From: Roseateles toxinivorans
GTDB lineage: Bacteria; Pseudomonadota; Gammaproteobacteria; Burkholderiales; Burkholderiaceae_C
Direction of reading: 5' to 3'
NCBI RefSeq assembly: GCF_004362525.1
Contig: NZ_SNXS01000002.1
Span: 744,001-808,000 of the forward strand
DNA: 64,000 nucleotides
Made by a program: the position numbers and the translations under genes. Shown here in pieces: positions 90 to 54,112 of this stretch. The number at the start of each line of letters is the position of its first letter. Positions within the stretch are counted from its first letter, which is position 1. The notes below the pieces were generated by a model. The model did no database searches. It was given only the letters and a program-made list of their open reading frames with translations, and was not told the origin of the DNA.

Positions 90-1118
90 ATGGGACTGAT
101 GGATTTCATCAAGAAACAGTTCATCGACATCATCGAATGGACGGAGGCTGGCGACGGTGTGCTGGCCTGGCGCTTCCCCATCGCCGACCGCGAAATCCAG
201 TATGGCGCATCGCTGACGGTGCGCGAGTCCCAGCTGGCGGTGTTCGTCAACGAGGGCAAGGTCGCCGATGTGTTCGGCCCCGGCATGCACAAGCTGACGA
301 CGCAGACCCTGCCGGTGCTGACCTATCTGAAGAACTGGGACAAGCTGTTCGAGTCCCCGTTCAAGAGCGACGTCTATTTCGTCAGCACCCGCCAACAGAT
401 CGACCAGCGCTGGGGCACCACCCAGCCGGTGACGATACGCGACAAGGACTTCGGCGCCGTGCGCCTGCGCGCCTTTGGCAACTATGCCTACAGCGTTGTC
501 GATGCCAAGCTGTTCCATACCCAGATCTCGGGCACCCGCGACACCTACACGGTGGCCGACCTCGAAGGCCAGCTGCGCGGCCTGATGCTGCAGCACATAA
601 GCGATGCGGTGGCGGGAAGCGGCATCCCCTTCCTGGACCTGGCCGCCAACCAGATCGAGTTTGCCAAGCAGCTGCAGGAGGCGAACCAACCCGAGTTCGC
701 CAAGCTGGGCCTGCGCCTGGACGCGGTGACGGTGCAGAGCGTATCGCTGCCCGAGGAGCTGCAGAAAATCCTCGACCAGAAGATAGGCATGGGCATGGTC
801 GGCAACGACATGGGCAAGTTCATGCAGTACCAGACCGCGCAATCGCTGCCCAAGTTCGCCGAGGGCGCGGGCCAGGGCGGCGTGGTCGGCGACGCGATGG
901 GCCTGGGGGCAGGTGTTGCCCTGGGCCAGGTGATGGCCCAGCAGCTGAATCAGGGTCTGCAGGGCGCGCCTGCCGCTGCGGCCGCGGCGCCGGCCAGCCT
1001 GCGGCCCGACGAGGTGATGGCCACGCTGGAGAAACTGGCCGATCTGAAGAGCAAGGGCATCCTGACCGAGGAAGAGTTTTCGGCCAAGAAGGCGGAGCTA
1101 CTCAAGAAGCTGGTCTGA
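90..1118 (+). CDS. SPFH/Band-7 domain protein (YdjI/virion-core-like) with C-terminal SHOCT domain
   Basis: A 342-residue protein whose first two thirds read as an SPFH/Band-7 fold of the YdjI type. A low-complexity Ala/Gly-rich linker follows, then a SHOCT-like tail of about 30 residues (LADLKSKGILTEEEFSAKK) at roughly 310-340. SPFH proteins scaffold membrane microdomains; SHOCT segments are short oligomerisation or membrane-associated tails. No signal peptide or transmembrane helix is obvious, so it probably associates with the membrane peripherally. The ATG follows an AGGGAG ribosome-binding site. It is the first gene of a tight five-gene operon (next start 10 bp on) with DUF4178, DUF350 and a polyamine-synthase-like enzyme. 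That context is known from envelope-stress and PspA-associated gene clusters, so a membrane-stress role is inferred. Confidence 0.85.
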   Translation: MGLMDFIKKQFIDIIEWTEAGDGVLAWRFPIADREIQYGASLTVRESQLAVFVNEGKVADVFGPGMHKLTTQTLPVLTYLKNWDKLFESPFKSDVYFVSTRQQIDQRWGTTQPVTIRDKDFGAVRLRAFGNYAYSVVDAKLFHTQISGTRDTYTVADLEGQLRGLMLQHISDAVAGSGIPFLDLAANQIEFAKQLQEANQPEFAKLGLRLDAVTVQSVSLPEELQKILDQKIGMGMVGNDMGKFMQYQTAQSLPKFAEGAGQGGVVGDAMGLGAGVALGQVMAQQLNQGLQGAPAAAAAAPASLRPDEVMATLEKLADLKSKGILTEEEFSAKKAELLKKLV

Positions 1119-1128
1119 GGCCTGATCG

Positions 1129-2721
1129 TTGGCCTCCGAACCGTCCCCGCAACGCAGCTATCGTGCCGCCTGCCCCAATTGCGGGGCACCGGTGGACTTT
1201 CGCTCGGCCGCCTCGGCCAGCGCCGTCTGCAGCTTTTGCCGCAGCACGCTGCTGCGCGAGGGCGATGCGCTGCGCCGCATCGGCCTGAGCGCCGAGCTGT
1301 TCGACGACCACTCGCCGCTGCAGTTGGGGGCGTCGGGCCGCTACCAGGGCGCGGCGTTCATGCTGGTCGGGCGGCTGCAGTACGGCTATGCCGAGGGCAC
1401 CTGGAACGAATGGCATGCGCTGTTCGACAGCGGTGGTGCGCAGAAATCGGGCTGGCTGTCCGAGGACAACGGCGCCTATGTGCTCAGCTTCGAGGCGCCG
1501 CTCAGCGGCGAGGTGCCCACTGCTGATGAGCTGAGCGCCGGCGAGCGCCGGCTCGTCGCCGGTGTTGCCTGGGATGTGGCCTCGGTCACCCGCGCCAAGT
1601 TGCTGGCGGCGCAGGGCGAGCTGCCGCATGCGCCTAACCTGAGCGGCGAGTTCGTCGTTGCGGATCTGCGCAACGAGCGCGCCGAGGTCGGCACGCTGGA
1701 CTATGCCGATCCGGCGCAGCCGACTTGGAGCGTGGGCCGGGCGGTCGCGCTGTCCGAGCTGGCGATGACCGGCCTGGCCGAGGGCACCGAGAAGACGCTG
1801 AAGGGCCGCTCGGCCGAATGCCCCAGCTGCGGCACCTCCTTGCAGATCACGCTGGACAGCACCCAGTCCATCGTCTGCCAGCAATGCCATGCGGTGGTCG
1901 ATCTGTCGCAGGGTATCGGCGCCGATCTGAAGCACTATGCCCAGGCCGCCAACACGCTGGAGCCACTGCTGCCGCTGGGCAGCAGCGGCGTGCTGACTTT
2001 CGGCAAGCTGGGCCCGCTGCCTTGGGCAGTCGTCGGCTATATGGAGCGCTGCGACGTCCCCGATGGCGACGACGAGCAGACCTTCTGGCGCGAGTACCTG
2101 CTCTATAACCAGCGTGCCGGCTTTGCCTTTCTGGTGGACACCGAGGACGGCTGGTCCTGGGTGCGGCCGCTGACCGGCACACCCACCGGCCGTGGCGACC
2201 GACTGCAGTTCGAGGGCGACAGCTACCAGAAGCGCTACAGCTACCCGGCCAAGGTGACCTATGTGCTGGGCGAGTTCTACTGGCGCGTCACACGCGACCA
2301 GCGCAGCCTCAACACCGACTACCAGGGCACGGGCAGCGCCGCGCGCAAGCAGCTCAACCGCGAGGAGACCGGCAACGAGGTCACCTGGTCGGCCGGCGAG
2401 AAGCTGGACGCCAGCGCAGTCGCTCGCGCCTTCAAGCTGCCCGACGATCGCCTGGCCGCGCTGCAGCGCGATGCCGCACCCACCGGCCTGGGCGATCTGA
2501 TGGGCTCTGCAGGCGGCCTGCTCAAGCCGTTCCTGATCTTCGGCCTGCTGGTGATCGTCATCATCGCCGTCACCCGCTGCGGCAGCGACGACTGTGACGC
2601 CTACCGCAACACCTATGGCGTCGACAGCGCCGAATACAAGCAATGCCAGCGAGGCGGCGGCACGCGCACCAGCGGCGGCTCCTACGGCGGCTTCAGCAGC
2701 AGTGGCGGCGGCCACAAATAG
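1129..2721 (+). CDS. DUF4178 domain protein with zinc ribbons and C-terminal membrane anchor
   Basis: A 530-residue protein starting at TTG, 10 bp after the SPFH gene. Two CxxC...CxxC zinc-ribbon-like units are visible, one near residues 15-37 and another near 230-253. Each precedes a DUF4178-type beta-rich segment (GRLQYGYAEGTWNEWHALF and later EQTFWREYLLYNQRAGFAF). A single hydrophobic helix (FLIFGLLVIVIIAV) lies near residues 468-486, followed by a Gly/Ser-rich tail, so it is probably a tail-anchored inner-membrane protein. DUF4178 genes usually sit with DUF350, polyamine-synthase-like and Band-7 genes, as here. The biochemical function is unknown. Confidence 0.8.
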   Translation: MASEPSPQRSYRAACPNCGAPVDFRSAASASAVCSFCRSTLLREGDALRRIGLSAELFDDHSPLQLGASGRYQGAAFMLVGRLQYGYAEGTWNEWHALFDSGGAQKSGWLSEDNGAYVLSFEAPLSGEVPTADELSAGERRLVAGVAWDVASVTRAKLLAAQGELPHAPNLSGEFVVADLRNERAEVGTLDYADPAQPTWSVGRAVALSELAMTGLAEGTEKTLKGRSAECPSCGTSLQITLDSTQSIVCQQCHAVVDLSQGIGADLKHYAQAANTLEPLLPLGSSGVLTFGKLGPLPWAVVGYMERCDVPDGDDEQTFWREYLLYNQRAGFAFLVDTEDGWSWVRPLTGTPTGRGDRLQFEGDSYQKRYSYPAKVTYVLGEFYWRVTRDQRSLNTDYQGTGSAARKQLNREETGNEVTWSAGEKLDASAVARAFKLPDDRLAALQRDAAPTGLGDLMGSAGGLLKPFLIFGLLVIVIIAVTRCGSDDCDAYRNTYGVDSAEYKQCQRGGGTRTSGGSYGGFSSSGGGHK

Positions 2722-2755
2722 TTTTCAACCCAAGCATCTTTCCAAGGAGAAGGCT

Positions 2756-2980
2756 ATGGAAGGCTTTGAATGGCTCAAACCCGGCATCGTGCTGGGCTCC
2801 ATCCTCTACGCCCTGATCGGCGTGCTGGTGTTCTGGATCAGCTTCATCATCATCGACAAGCTGACCCCCTACAAGCTGTGGGACGAGATCGTGCACCACA
2901 AGAACGTCGCCCTGGCCATAGTCGTCGGCGCGATGTGCATCTCGATCGGGCAGATCGTCGCCGCGGCGATACATGGCTGA
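2756..2980 (+). CDS. DUF350 family small membrane protein
   Basis: A 74-residue protein with two hydrophobic helices (IVLGSILYALIGVLVFWISF and NVALAIVVGAMCISIG), typical of the DUF350/YjfL family of inner-membrane proteins. An upstream extension of the frame to 2594 exists, but this start is preferred because an AAGGAGAAGG ribosome-binding site lies immediately before the ATG and the extension overlaps the preceding gene. The gene overlaps the next start by 8 bp. Its partners (DUF4178, spermidine-synthase-like, Band-7) are the usual ones for this family. The molecular function is unknown. Confidence 0.88.
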   Translation: MEGFEWLKPGIVLGSILYALIGVLVFWISFIIIDKLTPYKLWDEIVHHKNVALAIVVGAMCISIGQIVAAAIHG

Positions 2981-4562
2981 GGAGGGACCGGTGCCACCGG
3001 TGGAGGCTGAGGCACCCGCCAACCCCGGGCGTGCCTCCCTGCCCGAGGTGCTGCTGCTCGCCAGCGTCTTCGTCATTGCCGCTTGCGGCCTGATCTACGA
3101 GCTGGCTGCCGGTGCGCTGGCCAGCTATCTGCTAGGCGATTCGGTGCTGCAGTTCTCCACCGTCATCGGCACCTATCTGTTCGCGATGGGTATCGGCTCG
3201 TGGCTGTCGCGCTTTGTCGAGCGGCAGCTGGTGGCGCAGTTCCTGCGCATCGAGCTGCTGGTGGGCGTGATCGGCGGGCTGATGCCGGCGGCGCTGTTTG
3301 CCGCGCACAGTCTCCTGCCCAGCGCAGCGACGGGCGCCTTCCGGGCGCTGCTGTACGGGCTTGTGCTGCTCGTTGGTGCGCTGGTGGGGCTGGAGATTCC
3401 GCTGGTGATGCGCATCCTGAAGCGCCATTTCCGCGAGCGCTATGCCTTGAAGCATCTGGTCTCGCAGGTGCTGACCTTCGACTATCTGGGCGCGCTGGTG
3501 GTGGCGCTGGCCTTCCCGCTGCTGCTGGTGCCGCAGCTGGGGCTGATACGCACCGGCCTGCTGTTCGGCCTGCTCAATGTGGGCGTGGCGGTGTGGGCGC
3601 TGTGGCTGTTCCGCGGTGAACTGCGGCGCTTGAGCAGCCATGTGCTGGCCTGTGCCGCATCGGCGGCGGTGCTGGGTGTGGGCCTGGTCTGGGCCGACCG
3701 GCTGACCACCTGGGCCGAGGACCGCTTCTACGGCGAGAACATCATCCTGCGCCAGAGCAGCGACTACCAGCGCATCGTCGTCACCAGCGGGCCGGCCGGG
3801 GTGCGCCTGTTCCTGAACGGCAATCTGCAGTTCCACTCGCGCGACGAGTACCGCTACCACGAGGCCCTGGTGCACCCGGCCATGGCCGCCCACGGTGCGC
3901 CGCGCCAGGTGCTGGTGCTGGGCGGCGGCGACGGTCTGGCGGTGCGCGAGATCCTCAAGTACAGGAGCGTCGAGCAGGTCACCCTGGTCGAGCTGGACCC
4001 GCGCATGACGCGGCTGTTCTCCGAGCAGCCGCTGCTGCGTACGCTGAACCAGGACGCCCTGCGCTCGCCCAAGGTCAGGATCGTCAATGACGATGCCTTC
4101 ACCTGGCTGGAGCAGCACCAGAAGAGCTTTGACGTGATCGTCATCGACTTCCCCGACCCGACCAATTTCTCGCTGGGCAAGCTCTACACCACCAGCTTCT
4201 ACCAGCTGATCGACCAGCACCTGTCGGCCGATGGCTATGCGGTGGTTCAGACCACCTCGCCCCTGGTCGCGCGGCGCAGTTTCTGGACCGTGGCCACGAC
4301 GATAGAGACGGTGGGCCTGAGCGCCACGCCGTACCACGCCCATGTGCCCAGCTTCGGCGAATGGGGCTTCATCATGGCCAGCCACCGGCCCTGGCACCGG
4401 CCAGCGGCCCTGCCCGAGGGGCTGCGCTTTGTCACCCTGTCCGGCCTGCCGGCGCTGTTCGACTTCCCGCCCGATATGGAGCGGGTGCCGGCTGAGGCGA
4501 ATCGCCTGTCCAGCCAGGTGCTGGTCCACACCTTCGAGGAAGAGTGGGGGAAGGTGCATTGA
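2973..4562 (+). CDS. Membrane-embedded spermidine-synthase-like aminopropyltransferase
   Basis: A 529-residue protein. Residues of about 25-230 form roughly seven hydrophobic helices. The C-terminal half is a spermidine-synthase-fold methyltransferase-like domain with the nucleotide-binding loop VLVLGGGDGLAVREILKY near residue 312 and the DFPDPTNFSLGKLYT active-site loop near 390. Soluble SpeE transfers aminopropyl from decarboxylated SAM to putrescine. The membrane-fused form is a recognised variant whose substrate is not firmly established. The gene overlaps DUF350 by 8 bp and the next gene by 4 bp (TTGA). No SAM decarboxylase gene is present in this operon. Confidence 0.88.
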   Translation: MAEEGPVPPVEAEAPANPGRASLPEVLLLASVFVIAACGLIYELAAGALASYLLGDSVLQFSTVIGTYLFAMGIGSWLSRFVERQLVAQFLRIELLVGVIGGLMPAALFAAHSLLPSAATGAFRALLYGLVLLVGALVGLEIPLVMRILKRHFRERYALKHLVSQVLTFDYLGALVVALAFPLLLVPQLGLIRTGLLFGLLNVGVAVWALWLFRGELRRLSSHVLACAASAAVLGVGLVWADRLTTWAEDRFYGENIILRQSSDYQRIVVTSGPAGVRLFLNGNLQFHSRDEYRYHEALVHPAMAAHGAPRQVLVLGGGDGLAVREILKYRSVEQVTLVELDPRMTRLFSEQPLLRTLNQDALRSPKVRIVNDDAFTWLEQHQKSFDVIVIDFPDPTNFSLGKLYTTSFYQLIDQHLSADGYAVVQTTSPLVARRSFWTVATTIETVGLSATPYHAHVPSFGEWGFIMASHRPWHRPAALPEGLRFVTLSGLPALFDFPPDMERVPAEANRLSSQVLVHTFEEEWGKVH

Positions 4563-6118
4563 GCTTCAGTCGGCGGGGCCTGCTGCTCGGCACGGTGGCA
4601 GGTCTGCTGGGCTGCCGCCCGGACGCCGTGGCGCTGCAGGGTGAGTGGGTCGGTGCCTCGCATGCCCGTGGCCACCGGCTGCGCGAGCTGAAGTCCGGTG
4701 CGCTGCCTGCGCCGCAGGTCCGGCACCGCGCCCAGGTGCTGATACTCGGTGCCGGGGTGTCAGGTCTTGCTGCCGCGCGCGGTTTCACGCGGGCCGGCGT
4801 CGGCGATGTGCATCTGCTGGAACTGGAAGACCAGGCCGGCGGCAACTCGCGCGGCCACCAAATGGGCGGCCTGCGCTGCCCGCTGGGCGCGCACTACCTG
4901 CCCTTGCCTGGTGAGCAGGCACCCGAGGTGGTCGAGCTGCTGGAGGAGCTGGGGCTGTCCAGGGTGGAGTCCGGCCGCCGCGTCTATGACGAGCGCCATC
5001 TGTGCCACAGCCCTCAGGAGCGGCTGTTCTACCAGGGTGCCTGGGTCGAGGGTCTGCTTCCGCCGGCCGAGGGCGATGCCGCCACCCTCGATCAGTACCG
5101 GCGCTTTGCGCGCCTGGTCGAGCAGGTGCGCAGCGAGCTGAGCTTTGCCATGCCCAGCCTGCGCGCCCGCGGCTCGGCCGGGCTGGCGCGGCTGGATGCG
5201 ATGACGTTTGCCCATTGGCTGCAGCGCGAAGGCCTGAGCGACGCCAAGCTGCGCTGGTACCTGGACTATTGCTGCCGCGACGACTACGGGGCGGGCCCCG
5301 AGACGGTCTCGGCCTGGGCCGGCCTGCACTACTTCGCCAGCCGCCATGGCTTCCATCCCCCGAGCGAGGAGACCGAACCCGAGCCGGTGCTGACTTGGGC
5401 CCAAGGCAATGCCTGGCTGACCGAGCGCCTGGCCATGCCGCAGCGCGAGCGCCTGCATACCGGCATGACGGTGCTGCAGGTGGAGGAGCAGCGCCATCAG
5501 GTCGAGGTGCTGGCCTGGAACGAAGGGATGCAGCGCGTCGAACAATGGACGGCGCGGACGGTGGTGTTCGCGCTGCCGCTGTTCATCGCCAAGCGCCTGC
5601 TGCGCACAACGCTGCCGGCACTCCAATCAGCCGCCGAGAAAATGCGTTATGCACCCTGGTTGGTGGCCAATCTTCGCTTGCGCGAGCCGCTGCTGCAGCG
5701 CATCGGTGCACCGCCGGCCTGGGACAATGTGGCCTATGGCGGCGGCGCCACCGCGCTGGGCTACGTCGATGCCTCGCACCAGGGCCTGCGGCCACAGGCC
5801 GGGCCGACGGTGCTGACCGCCTATCACGCGCTGCCTGCGTCGCAGCGCGGTGCGCTGCTGAGCGAGCCCTGGTCCGTCTGGGCCGAGCGGGTGCTGGGCG
5901 ATCTGCTTGCTGTGCACCCGGATCTGTCGGCCAAGACCGAGCGCATCGATCTGATGCGCTATGGCCATGCGATGAGCATGCCGGTGCCGGGCCTGCATAC
6001 CGATGCGGCGCTGCAATCGCTGTCTGCGCTGAAGGGCCGGCTGCGCTTTGCCCATGCCGACCTGGCCGGCTATTCGGTGTTCGAGGAAGCGTTCTGCCGG
6101 GGTATGGCGGCAGCCTAG
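4559..6118 (+). CDS. Tat-exported FAD-dependent amine oxidase-like protein
   Basis: The frame opens at a GTG (4544), but the TTG at 4559 is preferred: it overlaps the upstream stop as TTGA and has GGGGGAAGG just upstream. This start gives an N-terminus MSFSRRGLLLG, a twin-arginine signal, followed by AGLLGC, a possible lipobox. The Rossmann FAD motif ILGAGVSGLAAARG sits near residue 60, and the remainder reads as an NAD(P)-binding/amine-oxidase fold of about 519 residues. In an operon with a spermidine-synthase-like enzyme, oxidation of a polyamine or aminopropylated product is a reasonable inference, not shown. Its stop overlaps the convergent GGDEF gene by 4 bp. Confidence 0.8.
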   Translation: MSFSRRGLLLGTVAGLLGCRPDAVALQGEWVGASHARGHRLRELKSGALPAPQVRHRAQVLILGAGVSGLAAARGFTRAGVGDVHLLELEDQAGGNSRGHQMGGLRCPLGAHYLPLPGEQAPEVVELLEELGLSRVESGRRVYDERHLCHSPQERLFYQGAWVEGLLPPAEGDAATLDQYRRFARLVEQVRSELSFAMPSLRARGSAGLARLDAMTFAHWLQREGLSDAKLRWYLDYCCRDDYGAGPETVSAWAGLHYFASRHGFHPPSEETEPEPVLTWAQGNAWLTERLAMPQRERLHTGMTVLQVEEQRHQVEVLAWNEGMQRVEQWTARTVVFALPLFIAKRLLRTTLPALQSAAEKMRYAPWLVANLRLREPLLQRIGAPPAWDNVAYGGGATALGYVDASHQGLRPQAGPTVLTAYHALPASQRGALLSEPWSVWAERVLGDLLAVHPDLSAKTERIDLMRYGHAMSMPVPGLHTDAALQSLSALKGRLRFAHADLAGYSVFEEAFCRGMAAA

Positions 6119-8169
6119 ACTGCCCAACCGGTACTGAGCGTGCTGCGCACCGGCCCGACGATCTGCTGCAGCTCGACCAGACCGTTCTGGCGCGCCTGCT
6201 CGAAGTCTGACTCGATGGCCTGCAGCTTGCCGGCCTCGTGCACATGGACGCTGCTGATGCCGATGGCGCGGTTGCGGCCCTGGCTCTTGGCGGTGTAGAG
6301 CGCCATGTCCACCAGATTGACCGCCTGTTCCCAGCGCAGCGGCACCTGGTGCGGGGGCAGCGGGAAGCGGGCGAAACCGATAGACACGGTGATATCCAGC
6401 GGCCCGGTGTCCAGCGTCGCCGGCGTGTCGCAGATCTTGAACAGCACGCGCTCGGCCAGCAGCTCCAGCTGGTCGGCGGGCACGTCCGGGGCGAAGATCA
6501 GGAATTCCTCGCCGCCCCAGCGCACCACCAGGTCCTCGGTGCGCACCGCCTCGTTGAGGCGCCTGGCCACCTCGCAGATCACCACGTCGCCGGCCGCATG
6601 GCCGTGACGGTCATTGACATGCTTGAAGTGGTCGATGTCCACCATCAGCAGTGCTCCCTCGAAGTGCGCGGCGGCCTGTTGCTCCATCACCGCCATGAAG
6701 TGACGGCGGTTGGCCAGGTCGGTGAGCGGGTCACGCTCGCTTTGCGCGCGCAGCAGTGCATGGCTGGCAGCCAGGCGGCGATTGGCCTCGCGTACGCGCT
6801 TGACCATGATCACGGCCAGCACCACCGACAGCGCCATCAGCAGGGCCACCGCCATCCAGGCCTGGCGGGCCAGCTGGTGGTTGGCCAGTGCCTCGGCCTG
6901 CAGCATACGGTCACGCTGCAGCAGGTCGAGATCGGCGGCCAGGCGCAGGCTGTCGTACTTGATGCCCAGTTCCTGCATGGCGCTCGCGCGCAGGGCTTCA
7001 TGCGCCTTGGCGCTGAGGGCGCGCTCCTCGTGGTACAGCGCCAAGGCCTGCCTGTGCTGGCCCGCCCGCGCCATCGCTTCGCCCAGTTCACGCAACTCCA
7101 GCGCCTGCCTGCCCACCGCCTTGCCAGGGTCACCCAGCGAGCGCCCTTTGTTCATCTCGGTCAGGGCCGAAGCGATCTGGCCCATGGCCGTGTAGGACAT
7201 GGCCATGTTCAGGCGCAAGGTGCGTTCTATGCGTTGGTCCTGGAACTCCAGCACCACCGGCAGCGCCCGCCGGGCTTCAATGAGGGCTTCCGCCGGTCGG
7301 TGCAGCTTGAGGTAGTTGTCGCTGGCGTTGACTCGTTGCATCGCCGCCAGCCGCACGGCGCCGGCCTTTTCTGCCAGGCTCACGGCCTCCAGTCGGGCGC
7401 GCAGGCTGGCCTCGATCTGTCCCTTGATGTCGCTCATCAGCGCCTGCGCCATCTTCACCAGGGCCAGCGCGTGGGGATCCTCGCCGGCCAGCGCCTGGGC
7501 GCGCACCATCAGGTTTTCGGCAGCAGCATTCTCATGCTGGCGCAGCAGAGCAACGGCCTGCGCGCCCAGCGACTGGATCAGTCGGAAGTCATCCCCGGCC
7601 CGCTCGGCCAGGGTGAGCGAGCGCCCCAGCAGCGCGTCGGACTGGGCGCGTGCGCCGGTGCTGGCACGGAAGCGTTCCGACATGCGCAGCGCGCGCCAGA
7701 CCGAGCGGTAGTCGCAGGCCTCCGGCAGCGCGCCCGTGCCGCCGCAGTCGGGCTCAAGCACCGCCAGCGCCCGCTCGGACAGCCCGCCGGTGGTATCGAT
7801 CTGCCCTGCGGTCTCAGCCACCATCGCGCCGACGAGATCGGCCCAGGCGGCCAGCGCCGGCAGCTTGGCTTCCGAGGACTGGGCCCGCAACCGGTCGGCC
7901 AGCGCGCGGGCCTTGGCCGCGCCGCTGCCGCGCGAGGCCTCGATCTGCGCCTGGGCGTACCAGGCCAGGCGCTGGGTGTGTGGCGTGCGTTCGAGTTCCG
8001 GGCGCAGGGCCTGCAGCTGGGCCAGCGCGGCCTCCGGCTGTTCATTGCCCTGGAGTACCAGGCGATCGAGCCTTGCCTCGAGATTCGCTTCGGCATGGGC
8101 CATCTGCAGTGGCAGCAGGCCCAGCCAAGCCGCCTGCATCAGTGCGCCTTGCCAGCCGAGGCGCATCAT
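6115..8169 (-). CDS. Diguanylate cyclase with periplasmic TPR-like sensor region
   Basis: A 684-residue protein. An N-terminal signal or anchor (GALMQAAWLGLLPLQMAHA) is followed by about 400 residues of helical TPR-like repeats, one transmembrane helix (AWMAVALLMALSVVLAVIMV, about 435-455), a short coiled coil and a GGDEF domain. The active-site loop is GGEEF near residue 550, preceded at the right spacing by RTED, an intact product-inhibition I-site. It should make cyclic di-GMP under feedback control. The ATG at 8169 overlaps the stop of the upstream gene (ATGA), showing translational coupling; the frame extends further upstream but only inside that gene. Confidence 0.9.
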   Translation of the reverse strand: MMRLGWQGALMQAAWLGLLPLQMAHAEANLEARLDRLVLQGNEQPEAALAQLQALRPELERTPHTQRLAWYAQAQIEASRGSGAAKARALADRLRAQSSEAKLPALAAWADLVGAMVAETAGQIDTTGGLSERALAVLEPDCGGTGALPEACDYRSVWRALRMSERFRASTGARAQSDALLGRSLTLAERAGDDFRLIQSLGAQAVALLRQHENAAAENLMVRAQALAGEDPHALALVKMAQALMSDIKGQIEASLRARLEAVSLAEKAGAVRLAAMQRVNASDNYLKLHRPAEALIEARRALPVVLEFQDQRIERTLRLNMAMSYTAMGQIASALTEMNKGRSLGDPGKAVGRQALELRELGEAMARAGQHRQALALYHEERALSAKAHEALRASAMQELGIKYDSLRLAADLDLLQRDRMLQAEALANHQLARQAWMAVALLMALSVVLAVIMVKRVREANRRLAASHALLRAQSERDPLTDLANRRHFMAVMEQQAAAHFEGALLMVDIDHFKHVNDRHGHAAGDVVICEVARRLNEAVRTEDLVVRWGGEEFLIFAPDVPADQLELLAERVLFKICDTPATLDTGPLDITVSIGFARFPLPPHQVPLRWEQAVNLVDMALYTAKSQGRNRAIGISSVHVHEAGKLQAIESDFEQARQNGLVELQQIVGPVRSTLSTGWAV

Positions 8170-10259
8170 GTCAGCGCCTCGGTTTGCGGGCCCTGCAGCG
8201 CACGCAGGCCGACCCGGCCCTCGCGCCACGCCGCATCCATGCCCTGGGCCAGTTCATCGAGCGCCGACTCGTCCTGCACGTCGAGCTGGTCGATGCCGTA
8301 GGCGCGGTTGCGGCCATGGGCCTTGGCCATATACATCACGGTGTCCACCAGATTGATGGCTCGCTCCCAGTTGACCGCCAGGTCATGGGGCGCAATGGGA
8401 AAGCTGGCGAAGCCTATCGACGCCGTGACGGTGATCGCCTGGCCGGCGTAGCTGACCGGCGGCTTGCCAATCATGTCCAGCAGGCGCTGGGCCAGGGCCT
8501 GCACCGTCTCGGCGCTGCGTGACTCGACGACGATCAGGAACTCCTCGCCGCCCCAGCGCACCACCAGGTCGTCGGCGCGCACCGCCTCACGCAGGCGGTG
8601 CGACACGTCGACCAGCACCGCATCGCCGGCGGCATGGCCGAAGCGGTCGTTGATGCGCTTGAAGTGGTCGATGTCGATCAGGAACACGGTGCCGCGCAGT
8701 TTGCCGTCGTCGGCCAGACGCTTGATGGCGAGCTGGAAGTGCCGCCGGTTGGCCAGGCCGGTGAGCGGGTCGATCTCGCTCTGTATCTTCAGCTGCTCGT
8801 TGCTGGTAGCCAGCGCCGCATTGGTCTTGCGCACGCGCTGGTAGAGCAGGGCCAGCAGGATGCCGGAGACGACGAAACAGCCGGCCAGCAGGGCCCACAG
8901 GCGCATCTGCAGATTGCCGCGGCGCAGCTGTTCGGCGGCGATGCCGTTGTCGCGATTGAGCAGCTCGATCTCCTTGGCGCGGCGTTCGCTGTCGAAGCGC
9001 TCCTGGGCTTCCAGAATCGCCTTGCGGTCCTCCTGCTGCAGGTCCTCGTCGGAGATCTGGCGATAGGCGTGATAGGCCTCTATCGCCCCGGCGGCATCTC
9101 CGGCGCGCTCGAGGTAGATGCCCAGCTCGTTCAGGGTGTCGCCGACCGAGCTGACACCGCCGCCCTGCTTGTCCATGACCATCGCCTGCTCGACGAAGCG
9201 CTTGCCCTCGGCGATCTGGCCCAGCGAGATCTTGGCCAGGCCGATATTGGTCAGTGCCACCAGCTCGCCGGTGCGATCCTTGGCCTGGCGGGCCAGCGGC
9301 AAGGCTTCTTCCGACAGCGTCAGCGCGTGCGCAAAGTCGGCCTTGCGCAGATAGTTGTCGGCCAGATTGGCCAGGCTCAGCGCCAGATCACGGGGCGAGT
9401 TGGCCTCGCGGGCGTAGCGGATGGCGGCCTCGGCCGAACGCAGCGATTCCTCGGGCTTTTCGAGCTGCGCATAGACGATGCCGCGCTGGGTGTAGACGCG
9501 CAGCAGGGTGATCGCGTCACGGTCCTGCTCCGCCAGCCGCGTCGCCTCATCCACCATGGACAGTGCGCGGTCGGGTTGCTGGGCATGCAGATAGGCCTGG
9601 GCCAGTTCGCCGCGGCACAGCGCCTGCAGCCAGCGTTGACCGCTTTGCTCGGCCAGCGCCAGCGCCTGCAACTGCAGCGAGATCGCGTCCTCGATGCGCC
9701 CCGAGCCGTCCTTGAGGCGACCCAGCGCGCGCAGAAAGCGCATGCGCAGCGGCGGCGGGGCATTGCTCAGTTGCTGCTTGTCGATGCCATCCATCATCAA
9801 CTCTGCTTCGCGCAGATTGTTGGCCGCCCAGAGTTGGCGGGCGCGCAAGAAGCTGACCGTCGCCCGGGCGGTCTCGGTCAGCTGTGGATTGGGCCAGTTC
9901 TCCAGCCGGGTGACGACGTCGGCGAGGGCCGCATCATCGCGCGCCTCGGCCAGCAGAGCGCCTTGCACACTGAGGATGTCCAGGGCGCTGAAGCTGCCCT
10001 GCGGCGCATTTTCGTACAGCGCCTTGGCCTTCTCGGCGGCGGCGGCCGGGGCGGCTGTGCCGGTACGCTCCAGCTGCTCCAGCTCGGGCGAGCCGGAGGC
10101 AAACTGGCCGGCGGCCGGGGTGTCGGGCGCCGGGCTGCAGGCCACCAGGCATGCGGAGCACAGAATGACGATGTGGCGCAGATGGCGTTGTATGCACAGC
10201 GACTCGCTCAAGCCCGAACCCTTTGTCCACCCCAAAGCACGCACCCAGACCCTTAGCAT
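8166..10259 (-). CDS. Diguanylate cyclase, lipoprotein-like TPR sensor, paralogue of the next gene
   Basis: A 697-residue paralogue of the following gene. The N-terminus contains ILCSACLVACSPAPD, a convincing lipobox, but no in-frame ATG lies close to it, so the true start may be a TTG/GTG downstream of 10259. About 400 residues of TPR-like helices follow, then a helix near 455-475 and a GGDEF domain with GGEEF near 569 and an I-site RADD before it. A conventional signal peptide plus a later transmembrane helix places the TPR region in the periplasm and the cyclase in the cytoplasm. It is co-transcribed with the adjacent cyclase. Confidence 0.88.
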   Translation of the reverse strand: MLRVWVRALGWTKGSGLSESLCIQRHLRHIVILCSACLVACSPAPDTPAAGQFASGSPELEQLERTGTAAPAAAAEKAKALYENAPQGSFSALDILSVQGALLAEARDDAALADVVTRLENWPNPQLTETARATVSFLRARQLWAANNLREAELMMDGIDKQQLSNAPPPLRMRFLRALGRLKDGSGRIEDAISLQLQALALAEQSGQRWLQALCRGELAQAYLHAQQPDRALSMVDEATRLAEQDRDAITLLRVYTQRGIVYAQLEKPEESLRSAEAAIRYAREANSPRDLALSLANLADNYLRKADFAHALTLSEEALPLARQAKDRTGELVALTNIGLAKISLGQIAEGKRFVEQAMVMDKQGGGVSSVGDTLNELGIYLERAGDAAGAIEAYHAYRQISDEDLQQEDRKAILEAQERFDSERRAKEIELLNRDNGIAAEQLRRGNLQMRLWALLAGCFVVSGILLALLYQRVRKTNAALATSNEQLKIQSEIDPLTGLANRRHFQLAIKRLADDGKLRGTVFLIDIDHFKRINDRFGHAAGDAVLVDVSHRLREAVRADDLVVRWGGEEFLIVVESRSAETVQALAQRLLDMIGKPPVSYAGQAITVTASIGFASFPIAPHDLAVNWERAINLVDTVMYMAKAHGRNRAYGIDQLDVQDESALDELAQGMDAAWREGRVGLRALQGPQTEALT

Positions 10260-47700: not shown

Positions 47701-48378
47701 ATGAAGCCAGCTCGCCAAATCATTACGACGTCACCGCATCGGTCGGTAGGGGCCGTGCATGCATCTTGGCTTCAGGATGACCCTATCCATCACGAGTCAT
47801 TTCTGGAGAAGGGCGGCATTGAGATACTGCTGTTGATGCCGATGGCGGCGCACATTAAATCTCAGCCAATTAAGTTGATCTATGTGTCGGAAGGTAAGGA
47901 GCGCACCCACTACCCAGACTTCCAGGTGCGACTCAAGGACGGGCGTCACATCATCGTGGAGGTCAAGCCCTCGGTTTTTGTGGACGAACACCGGCACAAG
48001 TTCAACAGTTGTTCCGCGCAGTTGGCCCGCGCTGGGATTGAGTACTACGTCTGTACCGAAAAGTCCTTAGACGCAGAGCGTGTGGGTCGCGCGGAAAACC
48101 TGCGAGACCAAGCTAGGCGCGCCGCACCATCGGATGAGTTGGCCGAACTGCTGCATGCGGTGCGCTTGGGCGGGCATCTCTTGATTGCTGACGCACTCGC
48201 GCAGGGGTTCAACCCTCAAGTGATTGGTCACGCAGTTGGACGTCGGCTATTGACGGTTGGCCCCAGCCTAGAGCTCTCCCCAACGAACAGGCTCAGACTC
48301 ATGGAGAACGAGGATGGGCACTTACGTTGTAGCGATTGGATTGGTAGTCCGCCATGGGGAGCGCACGTGGCGATTTGA
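47701..48378 (+). CDS. tnsA: TnsA-like transposon endonuclease
   Basis: A 225-residue TnsA-type protein. The restriction-endonuclease-fold catalytic residues are visible: FLEKGGIE (Glu36), HYPDF (Asp73) and VEVK (Glu87, Lys89). TnsA cuts the non-transferred strand at the 5-prime ends of the element, so a heteromeric cut-and-paste mechanism is expected and not the replicative route of tnsA-less elements. The C-terminal part interacts with TnsC in Tn7. The gene overlaps tnsB by 65 bp. Confidence 0.9.
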   Translation: MKPARQIITTSPHRSVGAVHASWLQDDPIHHESFLEKGGIEILLLMPMAAHIKSQPIKLIYVSEGKERTHYPDFQVRLKDGRHIIVEVKPSVFVDEHRHKFNSCSAQLARAGIEYYVCTEKSLDAERVGRAENLRDQARRAAPSDELAELLHAVRLGGHLLIADALAQGFNPQVIGHAVGRRLLTVGPSLELSPTNRLRLMENEDGHLRCSDWIGSPPWGAHVAI

Positions 48379-50329
48379 GCGAGAGGTCAACGACGCGGCA
48401 AAGACGCTTGTCTTCGTCGATCAGGTCACGGGCGCACCGCGAACGATGACCTTGGCTACGTTGCAGCGCGACGTGCTCGCCAAGCGCTTGGTCGTTGTCA
48501 CTGGTGAAAGCCCAACGCTGGCCAGCCCGACGGCTCGGCCGGTCAGCTTGGTCACGACCCTGGAAGATATCGCCCCGAAGCATCGAGCGGAGATCTCCCG
48601 CCGCCGCGCCTACATCACGTATCTGCACCGCCAAGGGCTGACTCGCGGCCAACGTCGCCAAATCGCTGCGGCAATTCGCAAGCTTCAGGGCAAAGTTCCC
48701 ATGCAGGCCGATGTCCAGGATGGCAAGCCGGACAACTCAGTGCCATCGACGTCAACGGTGATGGAATGGATGCGTCGATGGGACCTGAGTGGTGGAAGTG
48801 TCGCCGCGCTCATGAACCGTGCCGCGAATCGGCGATCAAGCCGGCGGGTTCATCCGTCAGTGCTGTCGACGGGTCGTGAGTTCATCCGCACTCACTACTG
48901 TCAGCAGACACGCCCCCCGCTGGCGGAAACCAAGCTGTTCGTTGATCGAAAGCTCGAGGCGCTGGCTGCGGCGCAGCAGATCCCGCAGGCGGCCGCCCAA
49001 ATCAGCATGTCGACACTACAACGGCTCGCGAAGGAGATTGATCCCTTCGCGCTTGATCTCGCCCGGTACGGACCCAGCTACGCAAACAACGAGTGGCGCT
49101 ATTCACTTGAGGGCATCAATGCAGCCCGAGTGATGCAACGCTACGAAATCGATCACACCATTGTCGATGTGGTGGTCATCAGCGATGCTAACGGCATGCC
49201 GCTCGGGCGTCCGACGATTACTGTTGTCGTTGACTCGCACAGCGGCTATGTCTGCGGGTTCTTCATCAGTTTCTGGGGGACAGGACTTGCATCGACGCTC
49301 TCTGCCCTCAAGGTTGCAATCTCCCCTAAGGGCGATCTGACGGAGGGTCAGGGACTGTCAAACCCGTGGTTGGCCTACGGCATTCCGATGATGTTCGTGG
49401 TTGACAACGGGTTGGAGTTCCACTCGCCGCAGTTCCATTCGGTGGCCATGCACCTCAACGCCGACTTGCTGTTCTGCGCAGTTCGCCGGCCATGGTTGAA
49501 GCCATTTGTGGAGCGAACCCTTGGCTCCTATTTGCGGTACTTGCCGGCGGCCGGCCGCGTCGAGAAGCCCAAGACCAATTACCTGCCGCTGAAGCCGGAC
49601 AAGACTGCTGTTGTTACCTTCGGCGCCCTGTGCACCGGCTTGCTCAAAGCCTTTGTCGACATCCTCCCGATCGAGATCAATCAACGTAGTCTTTCCCTGC
49701 CCTTCGACAAGTTTGGTGATGGGATGGCAAAGCTGCTCCCCCCCGCGCTGCCGACAAGCACAGAAGAACTGGACATCATCGTTGCTGCCAGCAAGTCGTT
49801 GACCGTCACCGGCGAGGGGGTCGTGTCTGACTATCTCCGCTACAACTCGCTGGAACTCAAGGATCTGTGGCGGGCGACGCGCAGTACGTTCAAGACAGTC
49901 GTCAAGTTCAACCCCGAGGATCTCAGCTACGTGCATGTGCAGGACCCTCGGACCAAGGGATGGCTGCGAGTTCCCAGCTGCCTGCCTGAGTACACCGACG
50001 ACCTTTCCCTGGTGCAGCACAGGGCGATCAGGGAGCGGATTAAAGGCGAGCTGGACAGACGAAAGATTCCGGAATTGCTGGTCGCATCCAAGTTGGAGCT
50101 GCTTGACATGTGGAGCGCGCAGGCCGTGAGCGGCAAGCGCTTGAAACAGGCGCAGCTGCGCGCTCTAGGAGGCCTGACCTCGGCACATGTCTACCGGCCA
50201 CCGGGGCGGGAAACGCCTTCAGCAACACCGCCCAAGACACGGATGATTTCCGTCAGTGAGATGGAAGTGCCCGCATTTCAGATTCCGGCGTTCGATACCC
50301 TTTCCTTCAATGGGGGGCGCCATGTTTGA
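48314..50329 (+). CDS. tnsB: TnsB-like DDE transposase
   Basis: A 671-residue retroviral-integrase-fold transposase. The catalytic triad is EIDHTIVDVVVIS (Asp about 280), FVVDNGLEFHS (Asp about 363) and KPFVERTLGSYLR (Glu about 399). An N-terminal helix-turn-helix segment and a C-terminal Mu/TnsB-like beta-barrel follow the usual order. It binds the repeats at the element ends and joins 3-prime ends to target DNA with 5-bp staggering, consistent with the observed CCGAC duplication. It begins inside tnsA and its stop overlaps tnsC by 8 bp. Confidence 0.92.
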   Translation: MGTYVVAIGLVVRHGERTWRFEREVNDAAKTLVFVDQVTGAPRTMTLATLQRDVLAKRLVVVTGESPTLASPTARPVSLVTTLEDIAPKHRAEISRRRAYITYLHRQGLTRGQRRQIAAAIRKLQGKVPMQADVQDGKPDNSVPSTSTVMEWMRRWDLSGGSVAALMNRAANRRSSRRVHPSVLSTGREFIRTHYCQQTRPPLAETKLFVDRKLEALAAAQQIPQAAAQISMSTLQRLAKEIDPFALDLARYGPSYANNEWRYSLEGINAARVMQRYEIDHTIVDVVVISDANGMPLGRPTITVVVDSHSGYVCGFFISFWGTGLASTLSALKVAISPKGDLTEGQGLSNPWLAYGIPMMFVVDNGLEFHSPQFHSVAMHLNADLLFCAVRRPWLKPFVERTLGSYLRYLPAAGRVEKPKTNYLPLKPDKTAVVTFGALCTGLLKAFVDILPIEINQRSLSLPFDKFGDGMAKLLPPALPTSTEELDIIVAASKSLTVTGEGVVSDYLRYNSLELKDLWRATRSTFKTVVKFNPEDLSYVHVQDPRTKGWLRVPSCLPEYTDDLSLVQHRAIRERIKGELDRRKIPELLVASKLELLDMWSAQAVSGKRLKQAQLRALGGLTSAHVYRPPGRETPSATPPKTRMISVSEMEVPAFQIPAFDTLSFNGGRHV

Positions 50330-51266
50330 GCTTGACGCCGACATTGACACCGACGAGTTTGAGCGCAAAGTCGCAGAGCGTCGCCAGAAGACCTATAGCC
50401 CCGACGCGATCCGGCGCGGCTCGGAAATCGACGTGGCCATCGTCCTTCATGGATCGTTCCAGGCGGCTCTGGGGGCCGCAGATCGCGTATTTCAACTTGG
50501 CACTGCACTCAGCGTTCCAGCCGGCCTGCGCCTCATCGGGCCGCCCGGGTCTGGGAAGACAACCCTTCTCCGCTACTACGCTGATTCGGTCCCACGCAGC
50601 GCACTGTTTGATCGAGGTTTGGGCGCGATCAGAATCCGACTGCGCAAGCGGCCGTCGCTCGGCCATACAGTCGAATCCGTGCTGAGAGCGTTGCGGCATC
50701 CCTTCCCGAAAGTCAGTAGTCAGACGGTCGGGATGAAGCGAGACATCTCGATTGATGCGCTCAAGCAGAGGCGTACGCACCTCCTGCTCGTCGACGAGGC
50801 GCACAACCTATGCAGTCGTGCGGGCGGGTGGCGGGCAGGCAGTGATGAGGGCAACGAAACCACTGAATATCTGCGAGAAATCATGGATGCGCAGATCGGT
50901 TTGATTCTGGCGGGTGGCACCGGACTGGAGCAGCTGCAGGAGCGTGACAAGTATCTCCACAGCCGCTGCGCCGCCAAAGCCACGCTCGGCGACTTTGCCC
51001 TCGATAACGCCTGGGCCGGCATCGTGCATGGCTTGGCGGGGCACAACCAACATCATTGCTTGAAGTTCCTCACCGACTCGCGGCAGATTGTGTTGCTTCA
51101 TCGAGCAACTCGGGGCAACTTGCGCACGCTGAAGATGCTCGTGGTTGAAGCCATCTTGATCGCGGCCGACTCAAGCCGAAGCGACTTGTGTGCCGCCGAC
51201 TTGCGAAGTGGCTTTGGCCTTGCATTGAACGGGCTCGTTGACATTGCCAATCCGTGGGGTGCATAG
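50322..51266 (+). CDS. tnsC: TnsC/TniB-like AAA+ ATPase
   Basis: A 314-residue AAA+ regulator. Walker A GPPGSGKTTLL is near residue 73 and Walker B LLLVDEAHNL near 155. It polymerises on target DNA and links the target selector (TniQ) to the transposase. The ATG at 50322 overlaps the tnsB stop; the frame extends to 50256 but only within tnsB. Confidence 0.92.
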   Translation: MFELDADIDTDEFERKVAERRQKTYSPDAIRRGSEIDVAIVLHGSFQAALGAADRVFQLGTALSVPAGLRLIGPPGSGKTTLLRYYADSVPRSALFDRGLGAIRIRLRKRPSLGHTVESVLRALRHPFPKVSSQTVGMKRDISIDALKQRRTHLLLVDEAHNLCSRAGGWRAGSDEGNETTEYLREIMDAQIGLILAGGTGLEQLQERDKYLHSRCAAKATLGDFALDNAWAGIVHGLAGHNQHHCLKFLTDSRQIVLLHRATRGNLRTLKMLVVEAILIAADSSRSDLCAADLRSGFGLALNGLVDIANPWGA

Positions 51267-52229
51267 ATGCTGCCCCTCCCGATGACAAAGCCGCCGGAAC
51301 GGGCCGAATCGGCCTCCGGATACATGCTTCGCTTGCTGAGCTTGAACGGTGTCGGCGTCAGGGAGGCGCTAGCGCTGTGCCGGGCTACGCGCCGTAGGGT
51401 TCCGCAAGCTGCTGATACAGATCTGCTCTCCGGCCTCGCTGGCATATCTGCGGAGTGGTTCGACCATCGGACGCCAAGACCCTATGTCCGAGATCAGTGG
51501 AATGAGGTTGCCTTGTTCGGGTTCACCTGGAGAGACGCGTGGCTGTTGCGCGGTTTCCGCCAACAGGTGTGTCCACTGTGTATTCGTGAGCAAGGCATTG
51601 CTCGGCTGGAGTGGGACTTGGTCGCCTATCCGGTGTGTCACATCCACGGAATTGTTCTGCAAGACGCTTGCCGAATCTGCGGAAAAGGCCTCAGTCCCAA
51701 TCGCCCCGCGCTGGACGTTTGCGGTTGTGGTGGCTACTTCGCCGCTCGTGATAACGAGACAAGCGCTGCTACCCCATCCGTGAAGGCATGGACGGTATGG
51801 CTCTCGCAGCAATTGCTGGCGGACGCCGGCATCGCCCAACAGAGCGGCTTGCTGCCATTCGCCCCCCAGCTCCATGGCGCGAGCCCGGACGGCGCCTACC
51901 GGCTGATTTGTGCCTACGCGGGCGGGGCAAAGGCCTTTCGTGGAGAACTGATCCTCGCGGGCAGGCCGTGGCTCAGTAGCCATCAAGTCAGTCGTTTGAT
52001 CGCTCAAGGGTTAGATGCCCTACATGCGGCGGCAGGAGGCGCCCAGACTTCGATAGGTCTGGGGAGCGGCACGCCGTATGCGCTTGCTGAACAGGCGGTT
52101 GCGGGCATCACTGCATGGGATCGCGCTGTTGCCTCCCGCGAAATGCTCCGCTTGAGGCTCGGGCGACGCTGGCGCAATGCGCTGCCTCGATGCCCGAGTC
52201 AGCAAGAGCTGTTTGCGGACGTATCGTGA
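51267..52229 (+). CDS. tniQ: TniQ family target-selection protein 1
   Basis: A 320-residue TniQ protein. The N-terminus ESASGYMLRLLSLNGVGVRE is typical. The zinc-finger region reads CPLCIREQGIARLEWDLVAY, with CHIHGIVLQDACRICGKGL after it. TniQ/TnsD proteins choose the insertion site or recruit TnsC. The ATG directly follows the tnsC stop. It differs in sequence and length from the second copy, so each may serve a different targeting pathway. Confidence 0.9.
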   Translation: MLPLPMTKPPERAESASGYMLRLLSLNGVGVREALALCRATRRRVPQAADTDLLSGLAGISAEWFDHRTPRPYVRDQWNEVALFGFTWRDAWLLRGFRQQVCPLCIREQGIARLEWDLVAYPVCHIHGIVLQDACRICGKGLSPNRPALDVCGCGGYFAARDNETSAATPSVKAWTVWLSQQLLADAGIAQQSGLLPFAPQLHGASPDGAYRLICAYAGGAKAFRGELILAGRPWLSSHQVSRLIAQGLDALHAAAGGAQTSIGLGSGTPYALAEQAVAGITAWDRAVASREMLRLRLGRRWRNALPRCPSQQELFADVS

Positions 52230-52314
52230 GCATGCCAAACATGGTGAGACACGATAAGAGGCCGGACAGCAATGGTATGAAACGCGGGCTCTGTCCGTTG
52301 CTTGGAGATTCACT

Positions 52315-53151
52315 GTGTTGTTGACCAAGGTCCGTCAATTGGCTTATGTGCCGACAGCGGCGCAAGGCGAGTCGCCCAGTTCCTGGATCACTCGCGCCGC
52401 GCTTTCGCAGGGCGTCCGTATCCGTGCATTCACGAACTTCCTGGGATGGAAATTCGCGTATGACTGGGACCAGGACATCCTTTTCACCCGGGCATTTGGT
52501 CATGAGGTAGCGACGATGCCTGAGCTCGTCGGATTGAGTGAGGCGACCAACTTGATCAGCGCGCTCCTTGTGGCGAGGGCGTTTCGAGGATCGCACCTGC
52601 TCTATAGAAGCAGCGGCGCGGGTCGATCAGCCCCTTTCTCACGATACTGCGTGGAATGCTTGGAGGAGGCCGTGTCGCCGTTCTTCAGGGTGCAATGGCG
52701 CTTTCAGAACTGGAGATACTGCCCTAAGCATGAGTGCCTGCTGGAAGACGCTTGCCCCAGTTGTGGCATTCCTCCTTGCCTTCCAATCAGCATGATGTGT
52801 GCGAAGCGGCAAGGCGGCATCCTCAGAAGCCTCAAGCATTGCGGAAAGTGCGGGCTGTTGCTTACCAAGCTAGCACCCGTCACGCTGCAGCAAGCAAGGC
52901 TCGCAGGCATCTCCGATGCGGATCTAGCCACCATGCAAAGAGTCCAAGCTCATATCGAAGAAATCTCCCATTCCGGATCTTCCGACGCGGACTTGCCTCA
53001 TCGCATGTCGGCGCGGAAGCCGGAAGTCTTCGTCGAGTCTTTTTCCATGCCAAGCACGATCATCGACGCCACACAAGCGCGACGCAGGCTTGGCCTGCTG
53101 CCGCCAGTCGCGATGCCTGCGGTTTATCCATACCCGGTTGCAGACAGATAG
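52315..53151 (+). CDS. tniQ: TniQ family target-selection protein 2
   Basis: A 278-residue second TniQ, starting at GTG with TTGGAG 7 bp upstream. It has QGESPSSWITRAALSQGV at the N-terminus and a zinc finger CPKHECLLEDACPSCGIP, with a second pair HCGKCGLLL. Paired TniQ genes are known in several Tn7-like groups where one targets a chromosomal site and the other mobile DNA. The carboxyl tail is shorter than TnsD, so sequence-specific DNA binding is not obvious. Confidence 0.88.
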   Translation: MLLTKVRQLAYVPTAAQGESPSSWITRAALSQGVRIRAFTNFLGWKFAYDWDQDILFTRAFGHEVATMPELVGLSEATNLISALLVARAFRGSHLLYRSSGAGRSAPFSRYCVECLEEAVSPFFRVQWRFQNWRYCPKHECLLEDACPSCGIPPCLPISMMCAKRQGGILRSLKHCGKCGLLLTKLAPVTLQQARLAGISDADLATMQRVQAHIEEISHSGSSDADLPHRMSARKPEVFVESFSMPSTIIDATQARRRLGLLPPVAMPAVYPYPVADR

Positions 53152-53167
53152 AGATTCCGTGCCCGGG

Positions 53168-53437
53168 CCATTCGCCCGAATCGACATGTTGAACAGCAAC
53201 GAAATGCTTCAAGCGCATGTGCGAAAGCGGAGACCGGTCCATGCTGGCGCAGGCCCACCGGGGACTGCAGAAGGTAGACCGACCCGGCAAATGCCCGAAT
53301 GGCGACGTATCGAACAAGGGAACGCTGGTCAACGGGCAATCGTTGGCTGACCACAGCGCCTGCGCAGCGGTATTAGTATCCCGCGGCGATGTCCATCGCT
53401 ATCCGGCCAACCCGGCATTTGCCCGAATAGATGCCGG
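53168..53437. repeat. Internal repeats, ATTCGGGCA family, downstream of the tns operon
   Basis: Inverted relative to the left cluster: a degenerate copy CCATTCGCCCGAATCGA (53168), then near-identical direct repeats CCCGGCAAATGCCCGAAT (53283) and CCCGGCATTTGCCCGAAT (53411). They lie between tniQ2 and the exonuclease gene and help bracket the tns module. Confidence 0.6.
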
Positions 53438-53462
53438 CTCTGCGCCGTTGCTCGTTGCTTCG

Positions 53463-53951
53463 TCAAATGCACTCGTTACCTTTTGCCGATTGCTGCCAAG
53501 CGAAGCAGAGCGCCTTGGCGTCGTGCAGCGCATGGTGATCGCGGCGACCGTTAAGCCGCCAATACTCTTCAATGTCGCGCGGATCGATGCTCGATCTGAT
53601 CGACTGGCCCCTTATCCAGTCGGGCACCTTCAAGGTGTCCTCGTCGCGGGCCAGATAGGTGAATAGCTCCCAATCAGTTGGATGGTCGACGCTGACAAGC
53701 ACCTGGCCGGCATGTTCGAACTTCGCCAACCACGCTTTGAGCCGGGTAGAAAGCTCGGCCTCGGTGCAAATTGCTGCCTGCTCGGAGCCAAGCAGGGGCA
53801 ACACGGCCACGCGGCAGAAATCACTGCACTGCGCGAGATCGGCGTCGCTCCGCTCAGCGTAGAACTCCTGGCCATCTTCGGTCACGATGCCGATAGACAG
53901 CAACTCGCAATGCAGCAAGTCGGTGAATTCGGTATCGAGAAACAAATGCAT
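53463..53951 (-). CDS. Rv2179c-like 3'-5' exonuclease (DEDD family)
   Basis: A 162-residue exonuclease-fold protein. Exo I has MHLFLDTEFTD (Asp, Glu). SVDHPTDWELFTYLARDEDT fits the second acidic block, and the C-terminal HHALHDAKALCFAW carries the last Asp. The family includes DNA/RNA exonucleases such as Rv2179c, and mobile defence islands often carry them. An in-frame GTG 96 bp upstream is possible. Divergent from the deaminase gene. Confidence 0.78.
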   Translation of the reverse strand: MHLFLDTEFTDLLHCELLSIGIVTEDGQEFYAERSDADLAQCSDFCRVAVLPLLGSEQAAICTEAELSTRLKAWLAKFEHAGQVLVSVDHPTDWELFTYLARDEDTLKVPDWIRGQSIRSSIDPRDIEEYWRLNGRRDHHALHDAKALCFAWQQSAKGNECI

Positions 53952-54034
53952 GGGCGCAGTATCGTATTTGAAATAAGTGGCGATGACCTGCATAGGGTTC
54001 GACCCCAGGGCACATTTGATGGACAAACGCAAAT

Positions 54035-54111: not shown

Positions 54112-54112
54112 C

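Follow-up and report, generated by a model that had tools for sequence, protein, structure and literature searches.

A membrane aminopropyltransferase operon of Roseateles toxinivorans with a predicted Tat-exported, SpdH-like redox partner

By searching the open reading frames of a 64,000-nt window (the whole stretch of Roseateles toxinivorans contig NZ_SNXS01000002.1 that was analysed) with Pfam and NCBIfam profiles, we confirmed five plus-strand genes at 90-6118. An earlier note on this DNA had placed here a five-gene operon ending in an oxidase, and both the operon and its limits proved right. The five genes are:

90..1118, plus strand: SPFH protein (Band_7_1, 1e-75) with a C-terminal SHOCT domain, 342 aa; no transmembrane (TM) segment by hydropathy (Pfam, hydropathy)
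1129..2721, plus strand: DUF4178 protein (4e-28), TTG start, one C-terminal TM segment at residues 463-481 (Pfam, hydropathy)
2756..2980, plus strand: short DUF350 membrane protein (2e-13), 74 aa, two TM segments (Pfam, hydropathy)
2973..4562, plus strand: membrane polyamine aminopropyltransferase (NF002956, 1e-207), a TM part, probably of seven segments, followed by a Spermine_synth domain (NCBIfam)
4559..6118, plus strand: putative SpdH-like FAD enzyme (Amino_oxidase PF01593, 6e-17) with predicted Tat signal and lipobox (Pfam, alignments)

The DUF350 and transferase genes overlap by 8 bp, and the likely oxidase start, TTG 4559, overlaps the transferase stop TGA 4560-4562; the oxidase frame is also open from GTG 4544. 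Zinc-ribbon-like stretches in the DUF4178 protein score below the curated Pfam/NCBIfam cut-offs. Upstream of the operon lies a divergent gene for a UbiH-like FAD monooxygenase (named by eye), and a promoter and terminator scan returned one site each, not tellingly above shuffles. On the minus strand, 6115-10259 holds two long genes that overlap each other and run towards the operon, each with a C-terminal GGDEF-like sequence (by eye). Further along the window, a transposon-like region at 48314-57798 carries TnsB-like and TniB genes and two for TniQ, and behind these lie genes for a dCTP-deaminase defence-like protein (PADLOC dCTPase, 1e-163) and a protein kinase; GC content at 42-60 kb of the window is low, 0.55-0.61 compared to about 0.67.

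Searching 399 genomes of the order with the oxidase (P0005) at 1e-20 and the transferase (P0004) at 1e-60, we found the oxidase in 70, the transferase in 69 and both in 68, so that the oxidase is conserved with the operon in other genomes, a point on which the earlier reading of the locus had hinged. The genomes with a single gene (oxidase alone in G195 and G337, transferase alone in G159) are fragmented assemblies of 440 to 680 contigs. The oxidase gene starts within 400 bases 3' of the transferase gene, on the same strand, in 51 of the 68 genomes. The other 17 pairs are separated (nine on one contig at <25 kb, three at >25 kb and five on different contigs), and 15 of these 17 have their closest oxidase relative within the top three for the transferase. 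Protein distances of the oxidase and the transferase correlate with an r of 0.925 (68 genomes, 0/999 shuffles), a value computed with no host-tree control and behind much of which vertical descent alone could stand.

The orientation of DUF350 varies among the 69 transferase loci: 30 carry it on the transferase strand and 28 on the other strand, while 11 have no DUF350 match within the stretch. A colinear arrangement, the one seen in the window, thus recurs alongside a divergent one. An SPFH match was present in 45 of 85 loci, which makes SPFH the less constant part. By clustering 6147 ORFs of the 85 loci with blastp, we obtained 16 clusters present in at least eight loci, six of them holding core genes and five consisting of frames that overlap core genes. 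Of the five remaining clusters, four could be named, each from one or two members: an ABC ATPase in 17 loci, a PAS-GGDEF-EAL protein in 11, and an aldo/keto reductase and a response regulator in 8 each; the fifth, in 10 loci, has no Pfam match in its single tested member. No extra neighbour recurs near core frequency among these clusters; clusters 0 and 1 are mixtures, so that a small extra gene could be missed. A Pfam search of 18 ORFs in four loci gave two DUF4178 proteins and ten members of other families (amidase, GatB, FtsX, ABC, SRP54 etc.), with six ORFs unmatched.

The earlier note had also taken the lack of an AdoMet (SAM) decarboxylase as a clue. No such gene is among the five of the operon, but this absence is only local: the genome encodes a decarboxylase of 124 aa, as a lone gene, at C2:718369-718725, 25 kb upstream of the window start, next to ABC exporter-like genes and an aldo/keto reductase-like gene (by eye). 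Moreover, PF02675 was found in 140 of the 399 order genomes, that is in 70/70 with the oxidase compared to 70/329 without it, and the clue falls away. The decarboxylase gene is at most 12 kb from the oxidase or the transferase gene in 42 of the 70 oxidase genomes, and within 1 kb of one of them in 10. In two genomes of one genus (L117 4585-8427 and L115 9713-14262), two DUF4178 genes flank the decarboxylase, beside the oxidase. When ten of the 70 decarboxylase genomes without oxidase were tested, all ten had a SpeE-like gene, beside the decarboxylase by coordinates, with scores of 188-249 bits that stay under the curated cut-off (249.55). Mutual exclusion between soluble SpeE and the membrane transferase was rejected as a rule, since a soluble SpeE-like gene also occurs close to the decarboxylase in two of five further oxidase genomes (5 of 69).

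Across the phylum, the oxidase profile at 1e-40 matched 13 of 397 genomes, 11 of the order and two (G421 and G611) of another family; in both of the latter the operon is complete and the decarboxylase gene comes right after it. The transferase profile at 1e-80 matched 28 of 279 phylum genomes, nine of them among the 13 with the oxidase. Whole-genome searches of the other 19 with a positive-controlled oxidase query gave no match at 1e-10. Eight of these 19 have partial, weaker transferase matches, and one, G471, has no oxidase match yet carries SPFH, DUF4178, DUF350, the transferase and the decarboxylase. The 19 genomes imply that the transferase works without the oxidase elsewhere, and the survey as a whole indicates that the oxidase was added, at the level of a clade, to a transferase system of wider distribution.

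The following sites of the oxidase (residues numbered from GTG 4544) bear on its export and chemistry:

4571..4576, plus strand: twin arginine R10 R11, kept in 68/68 complete N-termini
4613..4615, plus strand: lipobox Cys24, with Cys in this alignment column in 55/68 and absent in 13/68
4673..4675, plus strand: His44 in a GHxLR motif, aligned with SpdH haem ligand His54 (alignments; H44 in 69/69)
5669..5671, plus strand: Asn376 in a PWxxxN motif, at the place of Lys445 of Pseudomonas aeruginosa SpdH (PaSpdH) (alignments)
5966..5968, plus strand: His475 in a GHAM motif, aligned with SpdH haem ligand His562 (alignments; H475 in 70/70)

The N-terminus reads SFSRRGLLLG, then a lipobox-like GLLGC (residues 20-24). 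The N-terminal counts leave out L125 and L126, whose N-termini are incomplete, and L127 was dropped because it overlaps L100; a regular-expression scan for the lipobox gave 54/68, with two sequences read from an earlier RR. The twin arginine is also present in 5/5 SpdH homologues with an N-terminus in the alignment. From these signals we infer a Tat-exported, usually lipid-anchored enzyme, as the lipoprotein-like exported partner of the earlier note would have it. Export by Tat would fit, because the enzyme would be cofactor-loaded.

The same note had called this protein an FAD amine oxidase. The FAD-binding Rossmann motif is there, but the enzyme does not look like a typical amine oxidase. 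PF01593 matches 45 of 58 members at 0.001 in an alignment (A1) of 58 of the 70 oxidases with less than 80% mutual identity (L125 and L126 left out); forty columns of this alignment are invariant, which indicates strong constraint. With the oxidase profile searched against PDB, the best matches were near 1e-10, and those to P. aeruginosa SpdH reached about 4e-10 (7d9f, 7d9i and 7d9j) and 3e-9 (7d9h). Two non-SpdH chains, 2b9w and 4e0v, ranked above SpdH, matched over two short stretches; SpdH was matched over three, from N- to C-terminus. Counting residues in the printed alignment pairs SpdH His54 with H44 and His562 with H475. The stretch with His562 has only 5.9 bits alone, so that its pairing rests on hhalign. 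For this we compared the 58 oxidases with seven SpdH homologues, one from G030 (654 aa, 518 bits to 7d9i) and six plasmid-borne (L201 left out as distant), and obtained Prob 99.8 and E 3e-28 over 513 columns with about 21% identity; a comparison with a single SpdH homologue (Prob 98.1) gave the identical histidine pairing. As controls, two other PF01593 proteins of the genome align over 57 and 70 columns only, in the FAD-binding fold, and seven others score 14.7-22.4 bits compared to 644.8 for the window oxidase.

In the available text of PMC12564564, which cites Che et al., the haem b ligands of SpdH are His54 and His562. Only two histidines are invariant in the seven SpdH homologues, and by hhalign both align with the invariant oxidase histidines H44 and H475, the first pair in similar motifs (GHxLRD in the oxidases, AHxxRDG in the SpdH homologues). 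This argues against a reading in which H44 and H475 are not haem ligands and the enzyme is a plain FAD protein or performs another flavin reaction such as desaturation. The low identity to SpdH (about 21%), the shorter chain (524 compared to 654 aa in the G030 homologue) and three further conserved histidines (H117 in 70/70, H262 in 69/69, H504 in 70/70) speak in favour of such a non-haem enzyme, which we nevertheless consider rather unlikely.

Amine oxidases of the PAO/MAO/LSD1 type have an active-site lysine near the flavin, and no lysine is invariant in the 58 oxidases. At the place of PaSpdH Lys445, which we take to be the PAO lysine position, 67 of the 70 oxidases have Asn and three Ser, and the seven SpdH homologues have Asn (five) or Thr (two). 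PaSpdH Tyr443 corresponds to Val374 in the window oxidase, hence a different substrate site; residue 443 is Tyr in 7d9i and Ala in the 7d9j chain, and was probably mutated by the structure authors. AlphaFold models of the oxidase and the transferase were poor (pLDDT 45.5 and 50.1, from three-row alignments with two relatives). On the strength of the alignments we infer that the exported "amine oxidase" is SpdH-like, a predicted flavo-haem dehydrogenase rather than a typical polyamine or FAD amine oxidase. On a Duffyella plasmid (L197 2198-2472), the gene after an SpdH homologue encodes a c-type cytochrome, which could plausibly accept electrons from enzymes of the SpdH class.

The transferase scores 690 bits against NF002956 (curated cut-off 472), and its G317-G321 (GGGDG) and the paired Asp motif (D392 and D395) are invariant in the 35 sequences of alignment A2 (35 of 69 transferases). 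It is the sole strong Spermine_synth match of the genome (133 bits, the others 40.5 and 32.7). With TM limits set from hydropathy and the helices of the poor AlphaFold model, we counted charges in the loops of the 69 orthologues. First, loops 2, 4 and 6 have 1.84, 2.33 and 2.43 K+R compared to 0, 0 and 0.46 in loops 1, 3 and 5; loop L0 is empty for these orthologues, their N-termini being trimmed. Second, the stretch after TM7 has 0.94 K+R compared to 3.68 D+E. Third, 21 homologues from outside the order follow the same pattern in the loops (even 1.76, 1.38 and 2.86, odd 0.38, 0.05 and 0.05) and the same trend, less clear, after TM7 (1.86 K+R, 2.81 D+E). Provided that each of the seven segments crosses the membrane, the pattern puts the N-terminus inside and the transferase domain outside. 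The charge statistics of the 69 orthologues thus suggest seven TM helices with an outside catalytic domain, and the catalytic domains of oxidase and transferase may both face the periplasm. Chemistry at the outer face of the membrane, as the earlier note proposed, is favoured by these statistics together with the twin arginine and lipobox of the oxidase.

These loop charges, in the orthologues and in the outside-order homologues, speak against the alternative of a cytosolic transferase domain like that of soluble SpeE, with only the product moved out by the TM part before oxidation. However, TM2 and TM6 reach the hydropathy threshold in only 9% and 59% of the 69 orthologues, so that the number and parity of crossings are not secure, and the first 22 residues of the window transferase are net acidic (1 K+R, 4 D+E), which disfavours an inside N-terminus. 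A periplasmic domain would moreover need decarboxylated AdoMet outside, for which we know of no precedent and no exporter, and the cytosolic origin of this donor again favours a cytosolic domain. We regard the cytosolic arrangement as a real possibility, somewhat short of even. Cysteine depletion was tried as a periplasmic sign (0.155% in the 69 transferase domains, 1.0% in 10 soluble SpeE) and given no weight, because the SPFH protein is Cys-poor as well (0.013%) whereas the exported oxidase is not (0.995%).

Gene content, co-occurrence, the twin arginine, the SpdH relationship and the aligned histidines are read directly from the sequences, and they lead us to propose a module that is anchored in the membrane, transfers aminopropyl groups and works with an exported redox partner; to the full scheme we give a probability of about 0.55. 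First, a cytosolic AdoMet decarboxylase, encoded outside the window, would make decarboxylated AdoMet. Second, the membrane aminopropyltransferase would use it to put an aminopropyl group on an acceptor. Third, on the outer side of the inner membrane, the Tat-exported, usually lipid-anchored enzyme would oxidise a C-N bond of this product, and FAD would hand the electrons to a surface haem b with His44 and His475 as ligands, from which they would reach a respiratory carrier. The substrate may be a lipid, a polyamine of the envelope or some other molecule. The SPFH, DUF4178 and DUF350 proteins would probably serve as a membrane scaffold or sensor. The scheme thereby predicts haem, dehydrogenase chemistry, a shared substrate, periplasmic catalytic domains, an electron acceptor and the scaffold role. 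Since SpdH splits spermidine into 1,3-diaminopropane and an aminoaldehyde, as stated in the available text of PMC7576179, an analogous reaction would remove or trim the aminopropylated product. The oxidase could erase, mature or merely recycle this product, alternatives that are not separable by sequence. A bolder version, which we hold with considerable doubt, has the transferase as a periplasmic aminopropyl "writer" that takes decarboxylated AdoMet, or just the aminopropyl group from it, across to the outer face and there modifies a lipid or envelope molecule, and the lipid-anchored flavo-haem dehydrogenase as a likewise periplasmic "eraser" coupled to the respiratory chain that would remove or mature the decoration, so that envelope charge would follow redox state.

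SpdH also oxidises free spermidine and spermine, according to the text available of PMC12564564 and PMC7576179, and this favours a rival view in which the oxidase is an ordinary dehydrogenase of polyamines, exported to scavenge them from outside, while the operon merely co-regulates stress genes and the two enzymes share no substrate. The oxidase genes away from the transferase (17/68) and the transferases without an oxidase match in the phylum (19/28) point the same way. Such a scavenger would not need pairing, yet 68 of the 71 order genomes with either gene have both, even when the genes are apart, and we judge it distinctly unlikely. In the preferred reading of a transfer module with a redox partner, an exported protein kept with the transferase in 68 genomes narrows the product search to periplasm-reachable products. 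Moreover, the oxidase is a purifiable enzyme with a predicted haem signature, and its substrate would reveal the transferase product.

A system described by Li et al. in Biochem J in 2019 reportedly combines AdoMetDC with an MFS-SpdSyn fusion and DUF350, and its fusion protein is said not to make spermidine. AdoMet decarboxylase, membrane-fused aminopropyltransferase and DUF350 would be common to that system and the window system; we know of no exported oxidase partner in the former.

The association of SPFH, DUF4178, DUF350 and spermidine-synthase-like genes had been called known at the outset, and the core association is already in print, in the available part of Ravi et al. 2024 (PMC11237479), as is a "polyamine oxidase" in a related operon variant. 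The PSP-linked operons described there share the 7TM-fused spermidine synthase, DUF350 and DUF4178 with the window operon. In that text, the group with the 7TM synthase includes a CesT/Tir-PspA dyad and a Ctha_1186 lipoprotein, neither of which is among the five window genes; for the dyad of this second group, the five belong to other families. A 2TM band-7 protein accompanies the polyamine-oxidase variant, which is placed in an ATP-grasp ligase group. The available part of Ravi 2024 raises the question of the target of membrane-fused aminopropyltransferases and is silent on SpdH and haem, on export by Tat and on the membrane side involved. In the accessible texts of the literature searched, we found no statement that the oxidase partner is of SpdH type, binds haem or is a Tat lipoprotein, and its predicted SpdH-like identity appears to be new here.

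Among the closest known systems is P. aeruginosa SpdH (PDB 7D9F-7D9J), which the window oxidase resembles in an end-to-end profile match, a twin-arginine N-terminus, the FAD motif and both haem-ligand histidines. It differs from SpdH in sequence (about 21% identity by hhalign), in length (about 100 aa shorter) and at the substrate site, with Asn in place of Lys445 and Val in place of Tyr443. Unlike P. aeruginosa SpdH, the window oxidase is linked to an aminopropyltransferase.
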